IMG/VR virus record: IMGVR_UViG_3300032116_001161
Location: 1 to 26,184 of that record
Length of the DNA: 26,184 nt
Reading direction: 5' to 3' (one strand)
DNA from: a virus
The translations under genes were made by a program, and so were the position numbers. The notes below the pieces were generated by a model, which worked only from the letters and a program-made list of their open reading frames with translations, was not told the origin of the DNA and did no database searches. This document shows, one piece after another, positions 4,305 to 22,209 of this stretch (position 1 is its first letter; every line of letters begins with the position of its first letter).

Positions 4305-4922
4305 ATGGCATATACACGTGGTGATAGTACCCAGATTATCGTAGGTGCAGCAGCACTTTTTACGTATGAGAATGGTCCACTACCAGAAGCAGGAATTCTT
4401 CCAGGATATACTGCTGGTACATCCTACAAAGAAACTCTTTCCACAGAGGAAGGTTTCCGTAACGTAGGTTATACAATGAATGGTTTGGAACTTCAGTTCC
4501 AGCCAGACTTCGGTGAAGTTGCTGTTGATCAGGTTCTTGACGTTGCTAAGTTGTTCAAGCAAGGCATGCAAGTTAACCTCAATACAACATTTGCTGAGGC
4601 TACACTCGAAAATCTTCTCTTTGCTCTCGCAGGCAAAGGTGATGATTTGAACACGGTGTCTGGCAATCCAACACTCAATCTTTCAGCAGGCGATATTGGC
4701 GAATGTCCAGTAGAGCGTGGTTTGGTTGCAGTTGGTCCAGGAACTGGCGATTGTGCTGACTCAGATTCTATTGAAAGAATCTATGTTGCATATCGTGCAC
4801 TCTCAATTGAGAGCGTAACTGTTGGTGCAAAGCGTGATGAGGCAACAATGTTTGAAGTCTCATTCCGTCTGCTTCCAAATGATAACGCATCTTACGGTAA
4901 AATCGTAGATCGTTCTCTATAA
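4305..4922 (+). CDS. Major tail protein (tail tube subunit)
   Basis: A 205-residue subunit that stacks into the tail tube around the tape measure. The central stretch GLELQFQPDFGEVAVDQVLD (residues 64-83) followed by AKLFKQGMQVNLNTTFAEAT is the characteristic tube-protein pattern: a strand, a 'VDQ' turn naming the target, and an amphipathic 'TLENLLFAL' helix. C-terminal strands include ATMFEVSFRLLPNDN. An AGAGGTG site lies 6 bases before the ATG. Seven of eight arginine codons are CGT and ATA is avoided, like the capsid gene and unlike the neck genes just upstream, matching hundreds of copies per virion. A strong terminator follows at 4943-4965. The large tape measure downstream supports the assignment. 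Confidence 0.85.
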   Translation: MAYTRGDSTQIIVGAAALFTYENGPLPEAGILPGYTAGTSYKETLSTEEGFRNVGYTMNGLELQFQPDFGEVAVDQVLDVAKLFKQGMQVNLNTTFAEATLENLLFALAGKGDDLNTVSGNPTLNLSAGDIGECPVERGLVAVGPGTGDCADSDSIERIYVAYRALSIESVTVGAKRDEATMFEVSFRLLPNDNASYGKIVDRSL

Positions 4923-4942: not shown

Positions 4943-4975
4943 AGCCCAGCCCAAAAGGTTGGGCTTTTCTGTTTT
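4943..4975 (+). terminator. Rho-independent terminator after the tail tube gene
   Basis: AGCCCAGCC (4943-4951) pairs with GGTTGGGCT (4957-4965; one G-T pair) around a 5-base loop, then TTTTCTGTTTT. The end of its T-tract runs into the next promoter. Confidence 0.88.
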
Positions 4976-4983
4976 GGTATAAT
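4975..4983 (+). promoter_or_regulatory. Extended -10 promoter, leaderless, for the long tail chaperone
   Basis: TGG-TATAAT with the hexamer at 4978-4983. Only 6 bases separate it from the ATG at 4990, so a start site at the usual distance falls on or next to the A of the ATG. No ribosome binding site lies between. The 10-mer TGGTATAATT recurs at 5687 and 22201. Confidence 0.7.
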
Positions 4984-4989
4984 TGATTG

Positions 4990-5676
4990 ATGCCTACTCA
5001 AATTTATGATAGTGAAATAGTTACATTAATAGACGGCACAGAAATATATGTAACTCCACTAAAAATAAAATACTTAAAACTTTTTATGAAAGAGTTTGAT
5101 AGGGTAAAGAATGCCAAAAATGATTATGAGGCAATTGATGCTTTATGTTCTTGTGCCACAATAATGATGAGACAATTTTATCCTAAAATAAAAACACAAG
5201 AAGAACTTGAAAATAATATTGATATGCCAACCATATATAAAATATTAAAGGTTGCTGGCGGAATTAGCGTTAATGAAAAATCAGAAGACTCTGTAAAGGA
5301 TCAGGCAACAAAAAGTGGCGCAACCTGGGAAGAGTTAGATTTAGCAGAATTAGAGTCTGAAGCATTTCTTTTAGGTATTTGGAAAGATTATGAAGAACTA
5401 GAAACCTCTATGTCTATGCCAGAATTAACATCTACATTAAAAATAAAAAGAGAATTAGACTATCAAAATAAAAAGTTTTTAGCAGCAATTCAAGGGGTAG
5501 ACTTGGATAAAGAAAGCGGGAAACAAAATGCCTGGGAAGAAATGAAGGCTAGAGTATTCAGTAAAGGTAAGGCAGCAAACGCTAAAGATGTTCTAGCCCT
5601 ACAAGGGGCAAATGCACAAAAGGCTGGATTTGGTATTGGTATGGGCCTAGACTATGAAGATCTAACTAAAAAATAA
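4990..5676 (+). CDS. Tail assembly chaperone, long form (GT-type)
   Basis: A 228-residue chaperone expected to bind the tape measure and tail tube subunits during tail assembly. Residues 1-95 match the next gene residue for residue over much of their length (LIDGT, PLKI, an MK-F pair, and DMPTIYKILKVAGG against DLPTVYQVVEAASG). Residues 96-228 are an extension with FLAAIQGVDLD and a C-terminal GFGIGMGLDYED, as found in long chaperones normally made by frameshifting. Here the extension is in frame with the N-terminal domain in one uninterrupted gene. Start: an in-frame TTG at 4987 exists, but the ATG at 4990 is preferred because it lies 6 bases after the -10. Arginines are all AGA/AGG and ATA is common, suggesting low expression. 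Confidence 0.78.
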   Translation: MPTQIYDSEIVTLIDGTEIYVTPLKIKYLKLFMKEFDRVKNAKNDYEAIDALCSCATIMMRQFYPKIKTQEELENNIDMPTIYKILKVAGGISVNEKSEDSVKDQATKSGATWEELDLAELESEAFLLGIWKDYEELETSMSMPELTSTLKIKRELDYQNKKFLAAIQGVDLDKESGKQNAWEEMKARVFSKGKAANAKDVLALQGANAQKAGFGIGMGLDYEDLTKK

Positions 5677-5686
5677 AACCTCGCTA

Positions 5687-5695
5687 TGGTATAAT
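5687..5695 (+). promoter_or_regulatory. Extended -10 promoter for the short tail chaperone and tape measure
   Basis: TGG-TATAAT (hexamer 5690-5695), 26 bases before the ATG at 5722, inside a 45-base gap. No -35 match. It should raise short-form output above that of the long form and feed the tape measure. Confidence 0.68.
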
Positions 5696-5709
5696 TTACT
5701 TAATACCTT

Positions 5710-5716
5710 AAGGAGG
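5710..5716 (+). promoter_or_regulatory. Strong ribosome binding site (AAGGAGG)
   Basis: AAGGAGG five bases before the ATG at 5722. The homologous long-form gene just upstream has none. Confidence 0.8.
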
Positions 5717-5721
5717 AATAA

Positions 5722-6045
5722 ATGGCTACAACTGTGCATGAAGAAAAAGAGATTACTCTTATTGATGGCACAAAAGTTAATATCAGACCACTTAAAATAT
5801 CACTTCTTCGTCAATTTATGAAGAAGTTTGAAGGTTTGGCTGATGTTCAAGAAGATAATGATAAATCTATGACTTTGCTTATTGAATGCGTTCAGATCGC
5901 TATGAAGCAATATAAGCCAGAGTTAGCAGATGACCTTGCTAAACTAGAAGATCTATTAGACCTTCCAACAGTTTATCAAGTTGTTGAAGCAGCATCAGGA
6001 GTGAATCTTTCAGATACCGCACTTCTTGCTTTAGCACAACAATAA
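5722..6045 (+). CDS. Tail assembly chaperone, short form (G-type)
   Basis: A 107-residue protein homologous to residues 1-95 of the gene at 4990 and lacking its C-terminal extension. Shared features by eye are LIDGT, PLKI, FMKKF against FMKEF, a spaced C-I-M-Q-P pattern in the middle, and LPTVYQVVEAASGV. It therefore corresponds to the short, abundant chaperone G. It has its own promoter and an AAGGAGG site, and it uses mainly ATT/ATC for isoleucine (one ATA in six in the shared part, against about eight of twelve in the long copy). I looked for a frameshift extension: only 23 bases separate its stop from the tape measure start, so no long form can be made from this gene. Confidence 0.75.
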   Translation: MATTVHEEKEITLIDGTKVNIRPLKISLLRQFMKKFEGLADVQEDNDKSMTLLIECVQIAMKQYKPELADDLAKLEDLLDLPTVYQVVEAASGVNLSDTALLALAQQ

Positions 6046-6068: not shown

Positions 6069-9000
6069 ATGGCAGGAGATGTAAATAGCAACATTTTTAT
6101 TAATGTTGATACTTCTTCGGCTATGGCACAACTTCGTGCCTTAGAAAAAGAATTAACTGCTCTTAACCGTGCTCTTGTAATAGGTACAAAAACTGCAGCG
6201 CAAGCGCAAGCAAAATATGCACAAGGATTATTACATAATGTAAACGCAACTGGTCAGTGGACAGCATCTATGACCAGAATGAAAACTGCTACAGAACAGT
6301 TTTCAACAGCACTCGATAGATCAAAATTATCACTCAAAGATTACTTTAGATATGGTGTTGCATCAACAAAAACATTTGGTAGAGTATTTGGTAGCGAATT
6401 TGACACAGTTTCTAAACTTGTTGAAAAACGTGTAAAAGTATTACAGCAACAATATGTTCAATTAGGTCGTGATGCTCAGGGTGCAATGAATGCCCTTAAG
6501 TTTACACCAAAAGCATTAAACTATAGAGATGTAACAACACAATTAATGTTGGCAACACAGCGTCAACAAATATTTAATAAGTTACTTGATGATGGATCTA
6601 CTAAGTTATTAAATTTTGGTAAGAATACTCAGTGGGCTGGTCGTCAGTTAATGGTTGGTTTTACTGTTCCTTTAATGCTTTTTGGAACACAGGCAATTAG
6701 AGTATTTAAAGAAATAGAAACAGAAACTATTAAGTTTAAAAAAGTTTATGGAGATATTTTTACTGATCCAGGACAAACAGATCTAGCATTAAAAAACATA
6801 AGAGCATTGGCTGATGAATATACTAAATATGGATTAAAGGTTTCTGAAACAATCAAGATGGCTGCAGAGGCAGCAGCAGCAGGTAATAGTGGAAAGCAAT
6901 TAGAAGAAATAGTAAACCAGACAAATAAGTTAGCCGTCCTTGGTGGTGTTACTCAAGAGAAAGCACTTGAGACTACAATTGCACTACAAAATGCTTTTAA
7001 AATTGATAGTAAAAATTTAGGTCAAACAATTAACTTTTTAAACGCTGTTGAAAACCAAACTGTTGTTGCCCTTGAAGATTTAACTGAAGCAATTCCACGT
7101 GTCGCTCCAGTTGTTCAACAGTTAGGTGGAGATGTTAAAGATCTTGCATTCTTTATGGCTGCTATGCAAGAAGGTGGTATCAGTGCAGCACAAGGTGCTA
7201 ACGCATTAAAGTCTGGTCTTGGTTCTTTGATTAATCCAAGTAAAAAAGCAGCACAGGCTGCTGCTGATGTTGGAGTTAATATTAAAGGAATTGTTGAAGC
7301 AAACCAGGGTAACTTAAGAAATATAGTTGTTGGATTTGCTCAAGCATTAGAGCCATTAACAGAATTGCAACGTACTAGAGTCATCGAAGATGTATTTGGA
7401 AAATATCAGTTTGCAAGAATTTCTGCTTTATTAAATAATATTACAAAAGATGGAACTCAGGCTGCTAGAGTTTTGCAATTAGCAAATGCATCTGTTGAAG
7501 AACTTGCAATTTTATCAGAGCGAGAATTAGGAACTCAAGCAAATTCTGCAATGAACAAACTTGTAGGTGCTACAGAAAGACTAAAGGCTGCAATTGCACC
7601 TATTGGAGAGGTATTTGCCAAAACACTAACTCCAGCAATTGAGTTTATTACTCGAATGGCTGAAAAATTTAATAAATTACCAGATGGGATTAAAAAGGGA
7701 ATTGCAGTAATTACTGCTGTAGTAGGTGGATTAGGACCAATATTTTTAATGACTTTTGGTTTGCTTGCAAATGCAATTGCAAACGTTATGAAAGGATTTA
7801 ATGTACTTCGTAAAGGATATCAGTCTTTAGCATATGGATCTAGCGATGCTGCATTAAAAACACAATATTTAACAAATGAAGAACTAGAAAATATTTCAAT
7901 AACAAATGCTCTTTATTCTTCTCATGAAAGATTATCGGCAGCATATAAAATAGAGTCAGCAAGTCTTGGAGCCTTAATTGCTCAATATCAGAGTGGAGCC
8001 TCAGCAATGAGGGCATTCTCTGCATCTAATCCAGGACTATTTATTCCTGGAAAAGGTGTTCCGCCACTTCGTCGTGCAGGAGGAGGTGTGATAAGTGGAC
8101 CAGGAACTTCTACATCAGACTCAATTCCAGCATACGTATCTGATGGAGAATACGTAGTAAATGCAAAGGCAGTAGATAAGTATGGAGTAGAGACATTTGA
8201 TGCACTAAATGCAAGAAAATATTCTACTGGTGGTCCAGTAATTGGTAAAGATGGAGTTCCTAGATTATTTGGTGGCGCATGGATGAACTCAATTCGTTCT
8301 ATGATGCCAAAGACAAGACTTGGTATTGTTCAGGATGGGTTTGCTTTATCTGGATTTGGCGGGGCAGCCAGAGCAACAACTAATGCATTATATTATCCTA
8401 ATTCTCCAAAATTAAAGAATTGGAGATCAATACCATGGGAAGATGACAAAGATGGTTTGATAATAAGAGACCCAGGTACTGGAGAAACATATAAGATTGC
8501 TAAATCAAAAAAGAAAGAGTTTGATGATGCTTTTGCAGAACTTGTCTCTGCTGGCGGAGTTCAAAAATTTAAAGATAGACCAAGCATGACTGCTGGCGAA
8601 TATTTAATACATAGATTACATAAATATCAAAAAGTTAAAAAGAAACCATTAAGACCTTCTAGCATATTTGGTCAGGTTGGATCAGCAGGTAAGAAAAAGA
8701 ATAAAAATGCTCCTTCAGAAGTTAAAAGTGCATTAACAAAGGCTGCAATGGCAGATCCAAGTTCAAATGCTGCAAAAGTTCTTAGGTCATTAAAATCTGA
8801 TATAGATTTTCTTGAAGATACTCCAAGGTTAACTGCTGAAGAAAAAAATACAATTAAAAAATATCTAACTGTTGATGTTGCCCATATAGATCCTAAAGAT
8901 AGATTCCTGTGGTCAACTAGAACAGGAAGTCGAGATGTTGGTGTAATTAATAGAACATTGGCATATGAAAGAAAAGGATATCCACTTAAAGGTTCTCATA

Positions 9001-12000
9001 TATTTACTGCTAAAGAGGCTGAAGATTTCCTTAATTATCTAAAAGTTAAAGAAATGGTTGCTTCTAATATGGGAACGCAACTTCCTGCAACACACAAAGC
9101 AGCAATGCTTCTTTTAGAAAGAAGAATAGCAAATGGATTTTATGATAAAGTTAAAATAAAAGATACTGATATTGGTTTGCAGTATAGATCATATAGAACA
9201 GATCCAGAAACACGCAAATCATCTATAGTTGATGAATTTGCTAAAGGTGGAAGAGTTAGAAAGTATGCTAATGGTGTATTTTCAGTACCTGGACCAAAGG
9301 GTGCTGGAGATGTTGTTCCTGCAATGTTGTCGCCAGGAGAAGCAGTAATTCCAACAGCACAAACCGCAAAGTATCAACCATTAATAAAATCTATCATTGC
9401 AGATAATGTTCCTGGTTATGCTGGATCAAATTTAGATGATCCTTGGGCAGATGATACAAGATATACAAATTATAGAACATCAAGAGCAGAGGCTAATGTA
9501 GATAGAATAGCAGAAAAAATAGCAGGAAAGATCGAAAGAGGTAAAACAAGAGGCGGCATTGTAGGAAGAATGTCTGCTCGTGCTGAAAGGGCAATAGTAA
9601 ATGCAGTTAATGCAGAACCAGTAAGATCAACTAAAGCAGTTCCTCCAGCAGTTGCACAACCGTTCATGGCACTTAATAATACCGTTGCTGCAAATACAGC
9701 AGCAGTTCAAGACGATACTGATGCAACAAGAACTTCTGCTAGAACTACTCAGCAAATAGCAAATGACGATAAAAAACTTAACAGAACACGTGGTGTTCGT
9801 GGATATATGCTTGGATATGGTAAAGTTCCAGATGTTGATCCAGAAACTGGAAGACGTTTAAGTTATCAAGAAAAACAGAACTATCGTCAAAATCAAAGAA
9901 TGCAAAGAGGACTAGGTCCTTCTATGGCTTTAGGTGCTGTTGCTTCTACTGCAATGATGTATGGAATGGCAAAGCCAGATAGTTTTGCTGGTCAAAATAT
10001 GAATTTACTTATGGGCGTAACTGCACTTGCAGGCATACTGCCATTACTTAATAGTCCATTAAAAATGATGATTGCATCTATTGTAGGGCTAGTAGGATTA
10101 TATAAAATGCAGTCAGCACAAATTAAACAGGCACTACTTGATGGAGAAGCACAGGCAAAAGCAATGTCTATGACCACTGCTAAACTAGAGTCTCTTGGCA
10201 AATATACAAATCAGGTCTCCATAACACAAGTTTCTGCTGCTCAACGTGCTAAAAGAACTACTGAGATTACGCCAGTCAATCAAACATTTGGTTTTAACTT
10301 TTTGGGATCTGAAACAGGCAAAGCCTTTATGTCAGAATTTAATAAAACTGTTAAAACTATGGGTACAGATGTTGCTGCAAAAAATTTAGCAAATCAATTA
10401 GGATCCGCAGTACAACAGGGTGTGTTAACAGCAGATCAAGCAGAATCTATTGCAACTAATATTGCTAGATCATTAAATGATACAGTGCTTGAGGCAAATC
10501 TTCGGGGTAGAATAATTGAACTTGTCGGACCTAACGGTATTAATTTATCCAAAAACCCATATGAATTAAATGTTAAATTGATGACTGATGCAAGAGAATT
10601 AGAACAACTTTCATTAAGTCAATTAAATAAAACAGCAGGCGATGTTAATCAAGGATTACTTGGCATTGGTGGTAAACGTGCAAACTTAAAGCCTGGTGGA
10701 GCGATTATGGGCAATCCACTTCAATGGAGTGAAACTGCACAACTTCAGGGTATTGCGGCTTCTGGAACTGCTGCCAGTTTACTCAAAGCGGCAAAAGTAG
10801 CAAGAGTTGCAAAATATGCTGCTGCTGCTGCAACTGGACCAGAAACTCTTGGAATTGGAGCAGTAGCATCACTTGTAATTGGAGAAGCAATTACTGCTTC
10901 CTTAGTCTTTGCAGCACGACAACTCCAAAGAGGTGAAGAAAAGAAGGTTATTGCAAAAGTTGCTGGACAACTTGCTGGAACAGTAGCGCAAAATCTATCA
11001 TTAAGCCAACAAGGTATTGATGCTATGAATGCTGAATATAATGCTTCCATACAAAATTTAGAAATTAGAAGACAACAAGCAAAAACTGCTAAAGAAAGAG
11101 CAAATCTTGAAGAACAAATCTTAGATCTAGAGACCAAACGAAATGATGCTATTAATAAATCAAGAGTTCAGCAGGCTAAAATAATTACAGACTCTGCAAA
11201 TTATATTGATCAACTGACTACTCAAGAAGCAAAAAACAAATATGCTGATGCTTATAAAGAACAACTTAGTCAAAAATTCAAAGATGATCCATTTTTAAAG
11301 GCTAGAGCAGATCAATTAACATCAAGTATGCAGGCTGCTAATCTTGATCAAAAGGGTACTATTCAAATTCAGGCTTTAATAACATCAGATCAACTTAGTT
11401 TAGGCCAGGCAGAAGCACTTGTTGCAACCTTAACAGCAGATAAAGGAGATTTGAAAAAAGAAATTGAATTAATTGTTAGAACAACAGGAACTGAAGGTCT
11501 TACAAGATTTGCCGAAATAGCACAGTACCTTGGTAAAAATGCACAAAAGAATTTAAAAAATATTGTTGATGCAAACTTATTAAGAGGATATACTGAAAGC
11601 GTAAATGATTTATACTCTGGCCTAGAAGAGTTAATTAAATTACCAGAGTTTGTCGGTATTAAGATTGATACAGAAATTGATCCAAATGATGTTATATTGC
11701 TTGAAAGAGTTGGCAGAGATGCAAACTCTCTTAAGAAAAAGTTTGATGGAAAACCAATTACATTAGAAGCATTACAGTCATATAAAACAGAATTAAATGG
11801 ACAAGGAGTAACTAATAATGTATTAGATACTGCAATTAAAAACTGGAAACTTCTTTCATCTCTTGATCCTAATGTAAGACTTCAAGCAATGATGACACTA
11901 GCAACATTAACTGTTAGTGATAGTATAAGTGGACAAATAACATCAGAACAAAAGGCTGCTTTTTTAAAAACTGAAAAAGGAAAGTCTCTTAAAGATTTTG

Positions 12001-15000
12001 CTAATTCTGGTCAGGGATATCAAGCAGATTTATTTGCTAAAGAGTTTGCAGCATATCAAAGTTCTGCTGCAGGACAAAAAGTAGCACAAACTTATACTGC
12101 CGATCTAATGAATAGAATATTTCCTCCAGCAAAAAATGATACAGTAAATAAACCAATCTCGACTGGGGATACAACAGGAGAGAAACAAGACACATCCTGG
12201 CTTTCTGATTTGTTGCAAAAACTTAAACTATTTAAAGAGGCTTCAATAGATGCAACTGGTAACTTTAAGCAACTGCTTGGACAGGTTCAAAAATACTTTG
12301 GGCCAAAATTATTTAAAGATAATCCAATGCTTGGAGCACTTGATAAACAAAGAAGTGCTATTGAAAAAATACAAACAGCAGCATCAAAGGCTGGAATAAC
12401 ACTTTCTAGTTCATTTTTAGATTTCTTAAAAGGTTTAGATGCAGAACAATTTGAGGAAATTACAAAACAATTATTTAATATTAATAAAGAAGGAGAATAT
12501 TCTCTCAAGGTATTCCCAGGTGTAGAAAAGGTATTAAATCGTTTAGCACCAGAAGATAGGCAATTAGAAGCAAGTCAGACAATAGTTGGAGCAATTAATG
12601 AAGCATTTAAGCAAGGAACCCTTGTAGACTTTATTAATTCTCAAAGAGAGTCAATTAAACAAACTGATGATCAAACAATTGCGTTTCAAAAATTAACAAA
12701 CGGAGTTCTTGGTTTTAAGATGAGCGCACAGTTAGCATCAGATTTTATAAAAAATAATAAAGATTTAACAGCAGATATTGCAAGCGGTGCGAAAATATTT
12801 TCTGAGGATGAAATTAAAGGAGTAACTAAATCTCTTAATGAGTATTATTCAACAATTGCAAAAAATAATATTACAAAAATATTGCCAGAAAAAAGTGCAA
12901 TACAGGATCAAATTACTGCCCTAAATACTCTTACAGCACAGGGAGTAGAATATGAAACTGCTCTTAACCTAATACAACAAGAAGGAATGGCAGCATATAT
13001 TGCTCTTAATCCAAAAGCAATTACTGAAGATTTAAAGGATTTAGTTTTAGAAACACAAAATTTATTAGACTTAGTAAAGGCATTAGAAAATACTAAGTTC
13101 TTTAAAGAAAGAACTGCAACAATTCAACTTAAAGAAGACTTTGCTGCAATTGCTCCATTACTTGTAGATATGGGCCTTAGTTTAAGTGATGTTAATGAAA
13201 TATTAAGTAATCCAAATCTTGCAAAAGCATTTATCCAAGATCTAAAAGATGGTAAGTTAGATGCAGAACAATTAAAGAAATATATTGATGAAATACCAGA
13301 ATCCAAAACATTTGATTTGCAAATTAAACTTTCTACAAGAGAAGGCCAAGAAGAGGAATTTGATAAGTTATTTAGCAAGGCTATGGAGTATTATGACTTG
13401 CTAGAAGGTAAGATTGAGGATGATTTTGAGCCATTACTTAAAAATGCTCAGGATGCTATTGATAAGACTCAAGAAAAAATTGACGGCATCAATAAAGAAA
13501 TACAAGACTATCAAGATAATATCGATGCAAAACAAAGAAAGATTGAATTAGAAATAACACGACCAATAGAAATATTACAGAAAGAGTCATCAGATTTAGG
13601 TAATGATCTTGATTTAATGAATAGAAGTGCTGATGAAATAACTAAGAGATATGATGAGCAGGCAGATGCTTTAACAAAAGTATTTGAAATAAATTCAAGA
13701 ATTGCAAATCAACAAAAGCAACAACTAACACTTGCAGATGCTTTATCTCAAGGTGATATTTCTGCAGCAGCCGCAGCAGCACAAGAAATGAGAGCATCCG
13801 AGATAGAGGCAATGAAAGAGGATCAATTAGGAGTTTTGGGTGCTGCAAAAGATCAACAGATTGCAAATCTAAGAAGTAAAGGTGGGCTAACTAGATTACA
13901 AATAGAAAATCGTCAGTTTGCAATTAGTCAGCAGGTGTATGAACTTGAAAAGAAACGAGACGCTCAGTTATTAGAAATTAGACAAATTGAAGATAAGATT
14001 TATGATATTAAAGTTGGAAGATTAAAACTTGCACAAGACGAATTAGATTTGGCCAATAAGACCTTAAAAGATTATCAGAAGCAAAGAGATGCTGCTATAG
14101 AGGCAATAGATAGGCAACGAGAAGTTTGGAGAGATGCTCAACTTGCAATTGGATTTGCAAGAATAGATGCTGGATATTATAATGATGTTATTGAATTTTC
14201 AAATACTCTTGTTAATTTAATGAAGGATGGATGGCTTGGAGTTGGAGATGCTATTCTTGCTGCTGTTTCTGCTCTTGCTCTTTATAATGCAGGACTTACC
14301 AAAAAACCTCTTACTTTTGAGCAAGCACAGGCACAGGCTCAAGGAACTTTAACTGGATATCTAGATAATTTCTATACTCAACTTGGAAATAACGATCAAA
14401 AGATAGTCGACCTAGAACTTAAGATTGCAGAAGCAATGGAAAGAGGAGAAGACACTACAGCATTAGAGGCAGAATTAGCAGCATTAAGAGCATCAACTGA
14501 AGTCCTAGCAGATAATATGTACGATGTGGGGACTGCACTTAGTAATGTTGATGATGCAACAACAATAGCAGGAATTAATGCAGCAGTTTCTCAGGCTACC
14601 AGTGTTGTAAAAAATCCTTATGGAGATATAGATATTGAATATGATGGACCATACTGGGTTCCTGGAGATGGTGAGGGTGGAGCAGGAGGAGACTTTATTC
14701 AAGTAGCCTCTAAAGGCGGTATTATAAAACCAAGATACCTTCGTAAAGGTGGATTAACAGGATCACTATATCGTTCAATGGGTGGAACAATACCACGTTT
14801 CTTAAATGGTGGATTTGCTAAAGGCACAGATACTGTTCCAGCAATGTTAACTCCAGGGGAGTTTGTAATGAGTAGGTATGCAGTAAATTCTCATGGAATA
14901 GATAAAATGAGAGCAATTAATAGTGGGGACTCAATAGGAGACTCAGTGTATAATTATAGTATTAATGTCAATGTTAAGTCTGATGCAAACCCTGACGAAA

Positions 15001-15068
15001 TTGCACGGGCAGTAATGACGCACATTAAGCAAGTAGACTCAAAGAGACTTAGAGGAGCAAACTTATAA
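6069..15068 (+). CDS. Tape measure protein, TP901 type, 2999 residues
   Basis: Sets tail length and is released at injection. Taking about 0.15 nm per residue, as known for this family, predicts a tail near 450 nm. Residues about 200-540 carry the conserved TP901 core (the ETIKFKKVYGDIF region through EELAILSERELGTQ). Hydrophobic segments lie near 195-214, 544-570, 1286-1301, 1314-1345 and 1595-1617. Long charged helices, probably coiled coils, lie near 1655-1705, 2445-2510 and 2560-2710. Three copies of a Pro-Ala/Gly-Glu motif lie at 671-706, 1060-1100 and 2905-2943. The region between copies 1 and 2 is an unassigned domain. The end, with VNVKSDANPDEIARAVM, is typical. An AGGAGG lies six bases before the ATG. 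The first few hundred codons mix CGT and AGA; later parts use mainly AGA. Confidence 0.93.
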   Translation: MAGDVNSNIFINVDTSSAMAQLRALEKELTALNRALVIGTKTAAQAQAKYAQGLLHNVNATGQWTASMTRMKTATEQFSTALDRSKLSLKDYFRYGVASTKTFGRVFGSEFDTVSKLVEKRVKVLQQQYVQLGRDAQGAMNALKFTPKALNYRDVTTQLMLATQRQQIFNKLLDDGSTKLLNFGKNTQWAGRQLMVGFTVPLMLFGTQAIRVFKEIETETIKFKKVYGDIFTDPGQTDLALKNIRALADEYTKYGLKVSETIKMAAEAAAAGNSGKQLEEIVNQTNKLAVLGGVTQEKALETTIALQNAFKIDSKNLGQTINFLNAVENQTVVALEDLTEAIPRVAPVVQQLGGDVKDLAFFMAAMQEGGISAAQGANALKSGLGSLINPSKKAAQAAADVGVNIKGIVEANQGNLRNIVVGFAQALEPLTELQRTRVIEDVFGKYQFARISALLNNITKDGTQAARVLQLANASVEELAILSERELGTQANSAMNKLVGATERLKAAIAPIGEVFAKTLTPAIEFITRMAEKFNKLPDGIKKGIAVITAVVGGLGPIFLMTFGLLANAIANVMKGFNVLRKGYQSLAYGSSDAALKTQYLTNEELENISITNALYSSHERLSAAYKIESASLGALIAQYQSGASAMRAFSASNPGLFIPGKGVPPLRRAGGGVISGPGTSTSDSIPAYVSDGEYVVNAKAVDKYGVETFDALNARKYSTGGPVIGKDGVPRLFGGAWMNSIRSMMPKTRLGIVQDGFALSGFGGAARATTNALYYPNSPKLKNWRSIPWEDDKDGLIIRDPGTGETYKIAKSKKKEFDDAFAELVSAGGVQKFKDRPSMTAGEYLIHRLHKYQKVKKKPLRPSSIFGQVGSAGKKKNKNAPSEVKSALTKAAMADPSSNAAKVLRSLKSDIDFLEDTPRLTAEEKNTIKKYLTVDVAHIDPKDRFLWSTRTGSRDVGVINRTLAYERKGYPLKGSHIFTAKEAEDFLNYLKVKEMVASNMGTQLPATHKAAMLLLERRIANGFYDKVKIKDTDIGLQYRSYRTDPETRKSSIVDEFAKGGRVRKYANGVFSVPGPKGAGDVVPAMLSPGEAVIPTAQTAKYQPLIKSIIADNVPGYAGSNLDDPWADDTRYTNYRTSRAEANVDRIAEKIAGKIERGKTRGGIVGRMSARAERAIVNAVNAEPVRSTKAVPPAVAQPFMALNNTVAANTAAVQDDTDATRTSARTTQQIANDDKKLNRTRGVRGYMLGYGKVPDVDPETGRRLSYQEKQNYRQNQRMQRGLGPSMALGAVASTAMMYGMAKPDSFAGQNMNLLMGVTALAGILPLLNSPLKMMIASIVGLVGLYKMQSAQIKQALLDGEAQAKAMSMTTAKLESLGKYTNQVSITQVSAAQRAKRTTEITPVNQTFGFNFLGSETGKAFMSEFNKTVKTMGTDVAAKNLANQLGSAVQQGVLTADQAESIATNIARSLNDTVLEANLRGRIIELVGPNGINLSKNPYELNVKLMTDARELEQLSLSQLNKTAGDVNQGLLGIGGKRANLKPGGAIMGNPLQWSETAQLQGIAASGTAASLLKAAKVARVAKYAAAAATGPETLGIGAVASLVIGEAITASLVFAARQLQRGEEKKVIAKVAGQLAGTVAQNLSLSQQGIDAMNAEYNASIQNLEIRRQQAKTAKERANLEEQILDLETKRNDAINKSRVQQAKIITDSANYIDQLTTQEAKNKYADAYKEQLSQKFKDDPFLKARADQLTSSMQAANLDQKGTIQIQALITSDQLSLGQAEALVATLTADKGDLKKEIELIVRTTGTEGLTRFAEIAQYLGKNAQKNLKNIVDANLLRGYTESVNDLYSGLEELIKLPEFVGIKIDTEIDPNDVILLERVGRDANSLKKKFDGKPITLEALQSYKTELNGQGVTNNVLDTAIKNWKLLSSLDPNVRLQAMMTLATLTVSDSISGQITSEQKAAFLKTEKGKSLKDFANSGQGYQADLFAKEFAAYQSSAAGQKVAQTYTADLMNRIFPPAKNDTVNKPISTGDTTGEKQDTSWLSDLLQKLKLFKEASIDATGNFKQLLGQVQKYFGPKLFKDNPMLGALDKQRSAIEKIQTAASKAGITLSSSFLDFLKGLDAEQFEEITKQLFNINKEGEYSLKVFPGVEKVLNRLAPEDRQLEASQTIVGAINEAFKQGTLVDFINSQRESIKQTDDQTIAFQKLTNGVLGFKMSAQLASDFIKNNKDLTADIASGAKIFSEDEIKGVTKSLNEYYSTIAKNNITKILPEKSAIQDQITALNTLTAQGVEYETALNLIQQEGMAAYIALNPKAITEDLKDLVLETQNLLDLVKALENTKFFKERTATIQLKEDFAAIAPLLVDMGLSLSDVNEILSNPNLAKAFIQDLKDGKLDAEQLKKYIDEIPESKTFDLQIKLSTREGQEEEFDKLFSKAMEYYDLLEGKIEDDFEPLLKNAQDAIDKTQEKIDGINKEIQDYQDNIDAKQRKIELEITRPIEILQKESSDLGNDLDLMNRSADEITKRYDEQADALTKVFEINSRIANQQKQQLTLADALSQGDISAAAAAAQEMRASEIEAMKEDQLGVLGAAKDQQIANLRSKGGLTRLQIENRQFAISQQVYELEKKRDAQLLEIRQIEDKIYDIKVGRLKLAQDELDLANKTLKDYQKQRDAAIEAIDRQREVWRDAQLAIGFARIDAGYYNDVIEFSNTLVNLMKDGWLGVGDAILAAVSALALYNAGLTKKPLTFEQAQAQAQGTLTGYLDNFYTQLGNNDQKIVDLELKIAEAMERGEDTTALEAELAALRASTEVLADNMYDVGTALSNVDDATTIAGINAAVSQATSVVKNPYGDIDIEYDGPYWVPGDGEGGAGGDFIQVASKGGIIKPRYLRKGGLTGSLYRSMGGTIPRFLNGGFAKGTDTVPAMLTPGEFVMSRYAVNSHGIDKMRAINSGDSIGDSVYNYSINVNVKSDANPDEIARAVMTHIKQVDSKRLRGANL
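8079..8186 (+). repeat. Tape measure PA-GE motif, copy 1
   Basis: Encodes tape-measure residues 671-706: a Gly-rich lead, then SDSIPAYVSDGEYVVNA. Shares the D-x-[IV]-P-A-x-[LV]-x-x-G-E-x-V pattern with the copies at 9246 and 14781. Known from phage tape measures as a recurring short motif; role unknown to me. Confidence 0.75.
8187..9245 (+). other. Unassigned domain in the tape measure between motif copies 1 and 2
   Basis: Encodes residues 707-1059. This part is polar and basic, with mixed strand/helix character rather than the long helices of the rest. It includes IIRDPGTGETYKIAKSKKK, a Lys-rich linker near 850-885, a TVDVAHIDPKDRFLWSTRTG segment and an LPATHKAAMLLLERR helix. It is flanked by two copies of the same short motif, which suggests a cassette. 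I do not recognise the fold and assign no activity. Confidence 0.45.
9246..9368 (+). repeat. Tape measure PA-GE motif, copy 2
   Basis: Encodes residues 1060-1100: GGRVRKYANGVF, then GDVVPAMLSPGEAVIPTA. Closest to copy 3 in the PAML-[ST]-PGE core. Confidence 0.75.
14781..14897 (+). repeat. Tape measure PA-GE motif, copy 3
   Basis: Encodes residues 2905-2943: GGTIPRFLNGGFAKG, then TDTVPAMLTPGEFVMSR. Lies about 55 residues before the C-terminus and about 1800 residues after copy 2. Confidence 0.75.
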
Positions 15069-21768: not shown

Positions 21769-22208
21769 TGCCTACTCCAGACTCTGGTATTAAAAAAATT
21801 ATTATACCAAAATCAAAACTACCTGGATTTTTTGGCGAGAATAGAAAATATGTTTTAAGATATAGATTTATATCTGAAGATAAAAATAGAATGTCGCACT
21901 GGTCTCCAGCGTATAAAATTATAGCAGAAGATACTCCATCAGAAATTTTAAATAGTATGATTATAGATAAGACAAATAGAGTTATTAATTTAGCGTGGCA
22001 GCCACAGGCTGGGATGGAAGAATATTGTATATATGTAAAATGGAATAATTCTGGATGGCAGTTTTATACTAAAACATCTCAAACAAATTATTCTATAGTT
22101 TATGATGCAGCAAAAACATATGTTCATATTGCTGTACAAACAAAAACCATACCGTTAGAAAGATTTGCAGATGCTATATTATTTGAAAATGAAGGCAGTC
22201 TGGTATAA
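21768..22208 (+). CDS. Small minor tail protein with fibronectin III-like fold
   Basis: A 146-residue protein. Its C-terminal two thirds read like one fibronectin type III domain: VINLAWQPQAGMEEYCIYVK (a strand, a Trp, an acidic turn, then a YxIYV strand), WQFYTKTSQTNYSI and a closing VHIAVQTKTIP. The N-terminal part includes YVLRYRFISEDKNRMSHWSP, which could be a preceding strand pair of the same kind. Such domains are frequent in tail-tip proteins and may bind carbohydrates weakly. There is no ribosome binding site; it starts by TAATG overlap with the previous stop. Its stop codon (22206-22208) lies inside the next promoter hexamer. Confidence 0.55.
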   Translation: MPTPDSGIKKIIIPKSKLPGFFGENRKYVLRYRFISEDKNRMSHWSPAYKIIAEDTPSEILNSMIIDKTNRVINLAWQPQAGMEEYCIYVKWNNSGWQFYTKTSQTNYSIVYDAAKTYVHIAVQTKTIPLERFADAILFENEGSLV

Positions 22209-22209
22209 T
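22201..22209 (+). promoter_or_regulatory. Extended -10 promoter for the fibre-tip-like gene
   Basis: TGG-TATAAT (hexamer 22204-22209), overlapping the stop of the preceding gene and 15 bases before the ATG at 22225. It contains the same 10-mer as at 4975 and 5687. No -35 match at normal spacing. Confidence 0.62.

Follow-up and report, generated by a model that had tools for sequence, protein, structure and literature searches.

The short (G) and long (GT) tail assembly chaperones of the phage studied here are encoded by two adjacent paralogous genes. Very probably, one frameshift gene was duplicated and split into a low-output GT gene and a high-output G gene. Few recoding events in phages are as widely conserved as the G/GT frameshift. 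The window, meaning the whole stretch of DNA that was analysed, comprises 26,184 nucleotides of IMG/VR virus record IMGVR_UViG_3300032116_001161. A first-pass annotation made from its letters alone had inferred that duplication and division of labour replaced the frameshift; its observation of two paralogous genes is confirmed, on evidence stronger than was then stated, and the inference is supported. As far as sequence can establish them, homology, ancestry, loss of junction signals, the promoter and Shine-Dalgarno pattern and the codon contrast are secure.

Two paralogous chaperone genes

The GT gene (4990..5676, + strand, 228 aa), encoding the long chaperone, was identified by matches to phrog_10504 and phrog_10474, and the short G gene (5722..6045, + strand, 107 aa), encoding a chaperone without the T domain, by a phrog_10504 match, its paralogy to GT and its place in the G tree. 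Both open reading frames were present where the first-pass annotation had placed them. Their N-terminal halves, judged by eye to be roughly 30% identical over about 83 residues, were found by alignment to share 32% identity and 68% positives over 100 residues (E=2e-21). Failure of these domains to align in a profile comparison would have refuted the proposal; in profile searches both proteins matched phrog_10504 at about 1e-22. GT consists of a G domain (approximately aa 1–105) and a T domain (approximately aa 106–228) in the same reading frame, and the T domain, an extension carried only by the long gene as had been noted, gave a separate match to phrog_10474 (6.8e-15). PHROG family membership was thus met for both G (phrog_10504) and T (phrog_10474). 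On these sequence comparisons, GT and short G are paralogous tail assembly chaperones.

A C-terminal helix predicted at aa 99–105 of short G aligns with the G tail of the frameshift relatives described below. GT lacks this helix, as expected if it was lost at the old slip site.

The pair lies between the major tail protein gene (4305..4922, + strand; phrog_2175, E=5e-30; in relatives the gene at this position carries the annotation major tail protein), which was used as a flanking marker, and the gene for a tape measure protein of 2999 aa (6069..15068, + strand; phrog_10030, 5e-93; PF10145, 2e-29), which is preceded by AGGAGG. Membership of the G/GT system requires this position, and also requires a short N-domain protein together with a long protein having the same N domain and a C-terminal extension; both features were found. 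A relation in sequence or fold to recognised chaperones was met as well: homologues in annotated phage records are annotated as tail assembly chaperones, and the GT structure model (pLDDT 75) matched, in Foldseek searches of BFVD, N15 GT (prob 0.99), the EfaCPT1 chaperone frameshift protein (0.99) and the Kitkat chaperone (0.95). Comparison of predicted structures had been proposed as a check on the paralogy, and the G and GT models have the same order of strands and helices, with the qualification that the G model is the weaker one (pLDDT 66). Sequence and fold searches of the PDB gave no significant match for GT or G, Pfam and NCBIfam held no usable model for either, and no relative was found in a scan of bacterial genome contigs. 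Neither protein matched PF12322, the family of T4-like gp26/gp51; the best result from 40 homologues was a single weak match (E=0.047).

In the best explanation of these data, the pair provides the tail assembly chaperones of a long-tailed phage that has Stanwilliamsviridae among its relatives. By analogy, and in the absence of binding data, G is inferred to coat the tape measure protein and GT to bring in the major tail protein; this functional model, and the importance of the ratio, are based on work with lambda and TP901-1 (PMC5009743, PMC4493119).

Frameshift relatives

A tblastn search of annotated phages returned 127 Streptomyces records (Stanwilliamsviridae where classified) and 3 Rhodococcus records, each with a single matching place and hence one G per record. 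Ten Streptomyces phage loci were read, and in all of them T came after G in the -1 frame, overlapping it by 46–91 nt. EGole and its relatives encode the T domain in an ORF of its own in the -1 frame, and in Rhodococcus phage Francesca the chaperone is annotated as a joined gene. Scans of IMG/VR with profile classification gave 138 distinct loci with a fused GT gene followed by G and 48 distinct loci with G followed by T in the -1 frame (with near-copies included, 201 and 52, plus 4 split G matches and 1 cut contig), so that the search for one versus two chaperone genes among related phages, also proposed as a check, recovered both states. The first two scans were queried with GT and short G and are therefore biased toward two-gene loci, and the totals should not be read as a census. 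The 138 loci are also related by descent, and a feature present in all of them does not represent 138 independent events.

A canonical slippery heptamer was present in 32 of the 48 distinct frameshift loci (CCCAAAY in 26, GGGAAAC in 4, GGGAAAA in 1 and AAATTTA in 1), and most of the remainder had CCCGGAA at the same codons. A programmed -1 frameshift, the usual mark of G/GT, is thus met in the sister phages.

Three side observations were made on these relatives. In Boydwoodruffvirinae-type phages (L003, L165–L167, L172–L174), CCCGGAA occupies the place of CCCAAAY and is non-canonical with respect to XXXYYYZ; it is possibly an unusual slippery site. In Streptomyces phage records L003 and L164–L170, T is mostly listed as its own hypothetical protein or chaperone, in many cases with a start well inside the -1 ORF, and the frameshift product is unannotated. 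Four frameshift loci (L183, L190, L222, L236) have an extra TATAAT box, mostly TG-extended, between T and the tape measure gene, which may have its own promoter there.

Expression signals of GT and G

An intrinsic terminator (4943..4975, + strand), with a 9-bp stem (hairpin to 4965) and a T-rich tail, separates the major tail protein gene from GT. A hairpin followed by a T-run was found before GT in 112/137 loci and in 0/137 shuffled sequences. The GT extended -10 box TGGTATAAT (4975..4983, + strand) ends 6 nt before the ATG and is predicted to be a leaderless-mRNA promoter. Across the 138 loci, the TG extension was present in 131, and the hexamer was TATAAT in 54, TATACT in 48 and another sequence in 36. 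The spacer between box and start was exactly 6 nt in 107/138, and no locus had a Shine-Dalgarno site (0/138). Since TANNNT approximately 12 bp upstream of the start marks leaderless genes in bacteria and is common in Actinobacteria (PMC3160421), GT is predicted mostly to start leaderless, as the first-pass annotation had held for the long copy; no transcription-start data exist. In M. tuberculosis, leaderless genes show lower expression (PMC3898074). In about a quarter of GT loci the spacing differs from 6 nt, reaching 15, and some of these genes may have a short leader lacking a Shine-Dalgarno site and not be truly leaderless.

The short G gene has an extended -10 box of its own, TGGTATAAT (5687..5695, + strand), with a predicted transcription start near 5702, and a Shine-Dalgarno sequence, AAGGAGG (5710..5716, + strand). 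The latter had been reported earlier; the G promoter and the terminator before GT had not. TGNTATAAT precedes short G in 136/138 loci (TATAAT 136/138, TG 136/138), and a Shine-Dalgarno match of at least 4 nt was present in 138/138. Neither promoter was detected in a generic sigma-70 scan, since neither has a recognisable -35 box; both were called from the extended -10 pattern and its conservation. A terminator-like hairpin between GT and G was found in only 4/138 loci, so GT transcripts should run into G; no terminator was found after G (0/138). Nearly all frameshift relatives have a single G with an extended -10-like box and a Shine-Dalgarno site, like short G, which indicates that short G has retained a start of the ancestral kind and that the GT start is derived.

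Elsewhere in the window, TGNTATAAT boxes at 1169–1177 and 22201–22209 precede genes starting at 1199 and 22225, both with a Shine-Dalgarno site. Exact TGNTATAAT sites number 10 in the window versus 3.2 expected, and these boxes may be late promoters of the phage.

Codon usage and the G:GT ratio

ATA accounts for 9/16 of isoleucine codons and AGR for 4/4 of arginine codons in the GT gene of the window, versus 1/6 and 1/2 in short G, which agrees with the first-pass description of a long copy rich in ATA and AGA/AGG and a short copy with fewer ATA codons. Codon adaptation, calculated with the capsid and major tail protein genes as reference, was 0.420 for GT, the lowest among the tabulated window genes, and 0.624 for short G, and was higher for G than for GT in 138/138 loci. 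Among 58 cluster representatives, ATA made up 50% of isoleucine codons in the G part of GT versus 8% in short G. AT-rich frameshift phages served as an internal control: ATA was 8% in G and 41% in T, indicating that codon choice tracks expected output. Judged by these codon counts, the same G domain is shifted to low-output codons once it is in GT.

In lambda, the G:GT ratio is approximately 30:1 (PMC5009743). For the two-gene phages, the Shine-Dalgarno site, promoter match and codon adaptation were used as proxies for excess of the short form, no protein levels being available. Nested transcripts without an intervening terminator favour G over GT. Given the separate -10 boxes, the Shine-Dalgarno site absent before every GT and present before every G, and the codon contrast at every locus, the ratio is probably determined by the promoters, the mode of initiation and the codons. 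The proposal that transcription and translation signals took over control of the ratio is supported to this extent, the ratio itself being unmeasured.

GT and G could instead be distinct subunits, with the G domain of GT specialised, for example for one end of the complex or one part of the tape measure, and the difference in expression secondary. The G part of GT (GT-G) and short G have kept only 32% identity, the GT-G branch is 0.75, and GT-G diverges more among phages (mean identity 57%) than short G does (68%), whereas the two G parts of a frameshift phage are identical by construction. This is considered unlikely as the main explanation: low expression may account for the faster divergence, and specialisation alone leaves the conserved asymmetry of expression unexplained. 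It is conceivable, though doubtful, that splitting freed the G domains and GT-G then specialised, for example as an end cap or a binder of a tape-measure segment, making the chaperone complex an ordered hetero-oligomer and not a random mix of proteins with a common N domain.

Origin of the two-gene arrangement

In a G-domain tree of 118 rows, GT formed one clade (98/96) and short G one clade (99/96), and short G grouped with the frameshift G of L183, L197, L222, L190 and L236 (98/87). The major tail protein tree alone required 4 state changes and had weak branches; for the number of origins it was replaced by a tree of the concatenated major tail protein, tail terminator and tape-measure N-terminus (49 rows, 1034 columns). 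There, all two-gene phages formed a single clade (100/99), recovered in 100% of 200 bootstrap trees; the same five frameshift lineages adjoined it, and it lay within the frameshift outgroup. With the two-gene phages in one clade and frameshift phages as both sisters and outgroup, phylogeny makes the frameshift the ancestral state, with a single replacement in this sample, attributed to one duplication. The replacement inferred in the first-pass annotation is therefore supported by the 48 outgroup loci with G and -1-frame T, the clades of the G tree, the single two-gene clade of the flanking-gene tree and the loss of junction signals described below.

The grouping of short G with the G of sister frameshift phages, with GT-G elsewhere in the G tree, would also result if short G had been transferred from a related frameshift phage to a place beside an already fused GT. 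A fast-evolving GT copy can give the same placement, however, and both trees indicate one origin. Transfer in place of tandem duplication is thus regarded as quite unlikely, and since donor and recipient would be sister lineages, the outcome would be nearly unchanged.

Loss of the frameshift signal

GT is in-frame and heptamers are at background, so a programmed -1 frameshift at a slippery site, met in the sister phages, is not met here. In-frame heptamers occurred near the GT junction in 17/122 loci, versus a background of 16% elsewhere in GT, and at the 3' end of short G in 7/138, versus 8% elsewhere. None was found near the GT junction of the window itself, and synonymous conservation showed no peak at the GT junction, where sites were no more conserved than average; the 3' end of short G likewise lacked synonymous conservation. 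The G stop and the tape-measure ATG lie 23 bases apart, as reported earlier, which leaves no room for T.

The heptamers at those 17 loci, A-rich or other, and -1-frame stops within about 10 codons in many of them would allow slippage or termination at the junction still to release a little short G from the long gene, the second gene being an accessory copy; with heptamers no more frequent than chance, absent from the window and not accompanied by synonymous conservation, and with low-expression codons even in the G domain of GT, this is very improbable. Virtually no weight is given to the idea, to which only the modest confidence of the G model and the lack of a usable Pfam or PDB match lend anything, that the second gene encodes something other than a chaperone or that the pair is an artefact of assembly or annotation: both genes recur in 138 distinct loci and their homologues are annotated tail assembly chaperone. 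Assembly artefact and a non-chaperone second gene were accordingly ruled out by the many conserved loci.

Proposed model

In the preferred model of duplication and split, the ancestor would have had a single gene from which -1 frameshifting gave abundant G and little GT. The module would have been duplicated once at the base of the two-gene lineage. In the upstream copy, G and T would have fused in frame, and a leaderless start, a more variable promoter and low-expression codons would have made it the low-output GT gene. The downstream copy would have lost T and the slippery site and kept a Shine-Dalgarno start, a consensus extended -10 box and high-expression codons, as the high-output G gene. 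Each GT transcript could also carry G, and the G promoter would add G-only transcripts. The actual transcription starts, the protein ratio and the roles of G and GT are inferred, as neither RNA nor protein data exist and no member is in culture.

Comparison with known systems

The G:GT ratio is essential in lambda and TP901-1, and this large group of uncultured tailed phages indicates how a conserved device for setting it can be replaced. It is a natural replacement, traceable to one event, with both sisters and outgroup using the frameshift, and the alternative control can be read from sequence as leaderless versus Shine-Dalgarno start, promoter match, codon choice and nested transcripts. The lineage also permits a test of whether ratio control is the sole reason for retaining the frameshift or whether the need for a common N domain contributes too. 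The open-access literature yielded no account of a frameshift gene giving way to two genes in this lineage, and no traced replacement of a frameshift gene by a leaderless and Shine-Dalgarno-led pair. In 342 SEA-PHAGES genomes the annotation lists two chaperone genes that are not joined, and the PRFect authors put many of these cases down to incomplete annotation (PMC10885494). The present loci are a warning that two chaperone genes need not imply a missed frameshift.

In T4, gp26 and gp51 are short and long paralogues encoded by separate genes, both in PF12322, and likewise have a two-gene layout; they have no close homology to the family in the window, and their genes are divergent, but they may be a precedent. 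They are presumably the chaperones treated by Vladimirov et al. (2022), whose title reports a mechanism different from frameshifting for T4-like chaperones. The frameshift is usual but not universal, and T4 has been named as an exception (PMC5009743).

Lambda-type G/GT systems have the same position between the major tail protein and tape measure genes, a short N form and a long N+C form, and an expected excess of the short form, but use a -1 frameshift where the two-gene phages have two genes, two promoters and no slippery site. Stanwilliamsviridae (EGole, Annadreamy) have homologous G and T domains in the same gene order, and their G is preceded by a terminator, an extended -10-like promoter and a Shine-Dalgarno site, also as in the two-gene phages; they differ in having one G gene, behind which T lies in the -1 frame and is often recorded as a hypothetical protein of its own. 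The engineered permanent G-T fusion of TP901-1, which leads to non-infectious particles (PMC4493119), resembles the window in its in-frame GT; that mutant is without free G, whereas in the window the second gene supplies it.
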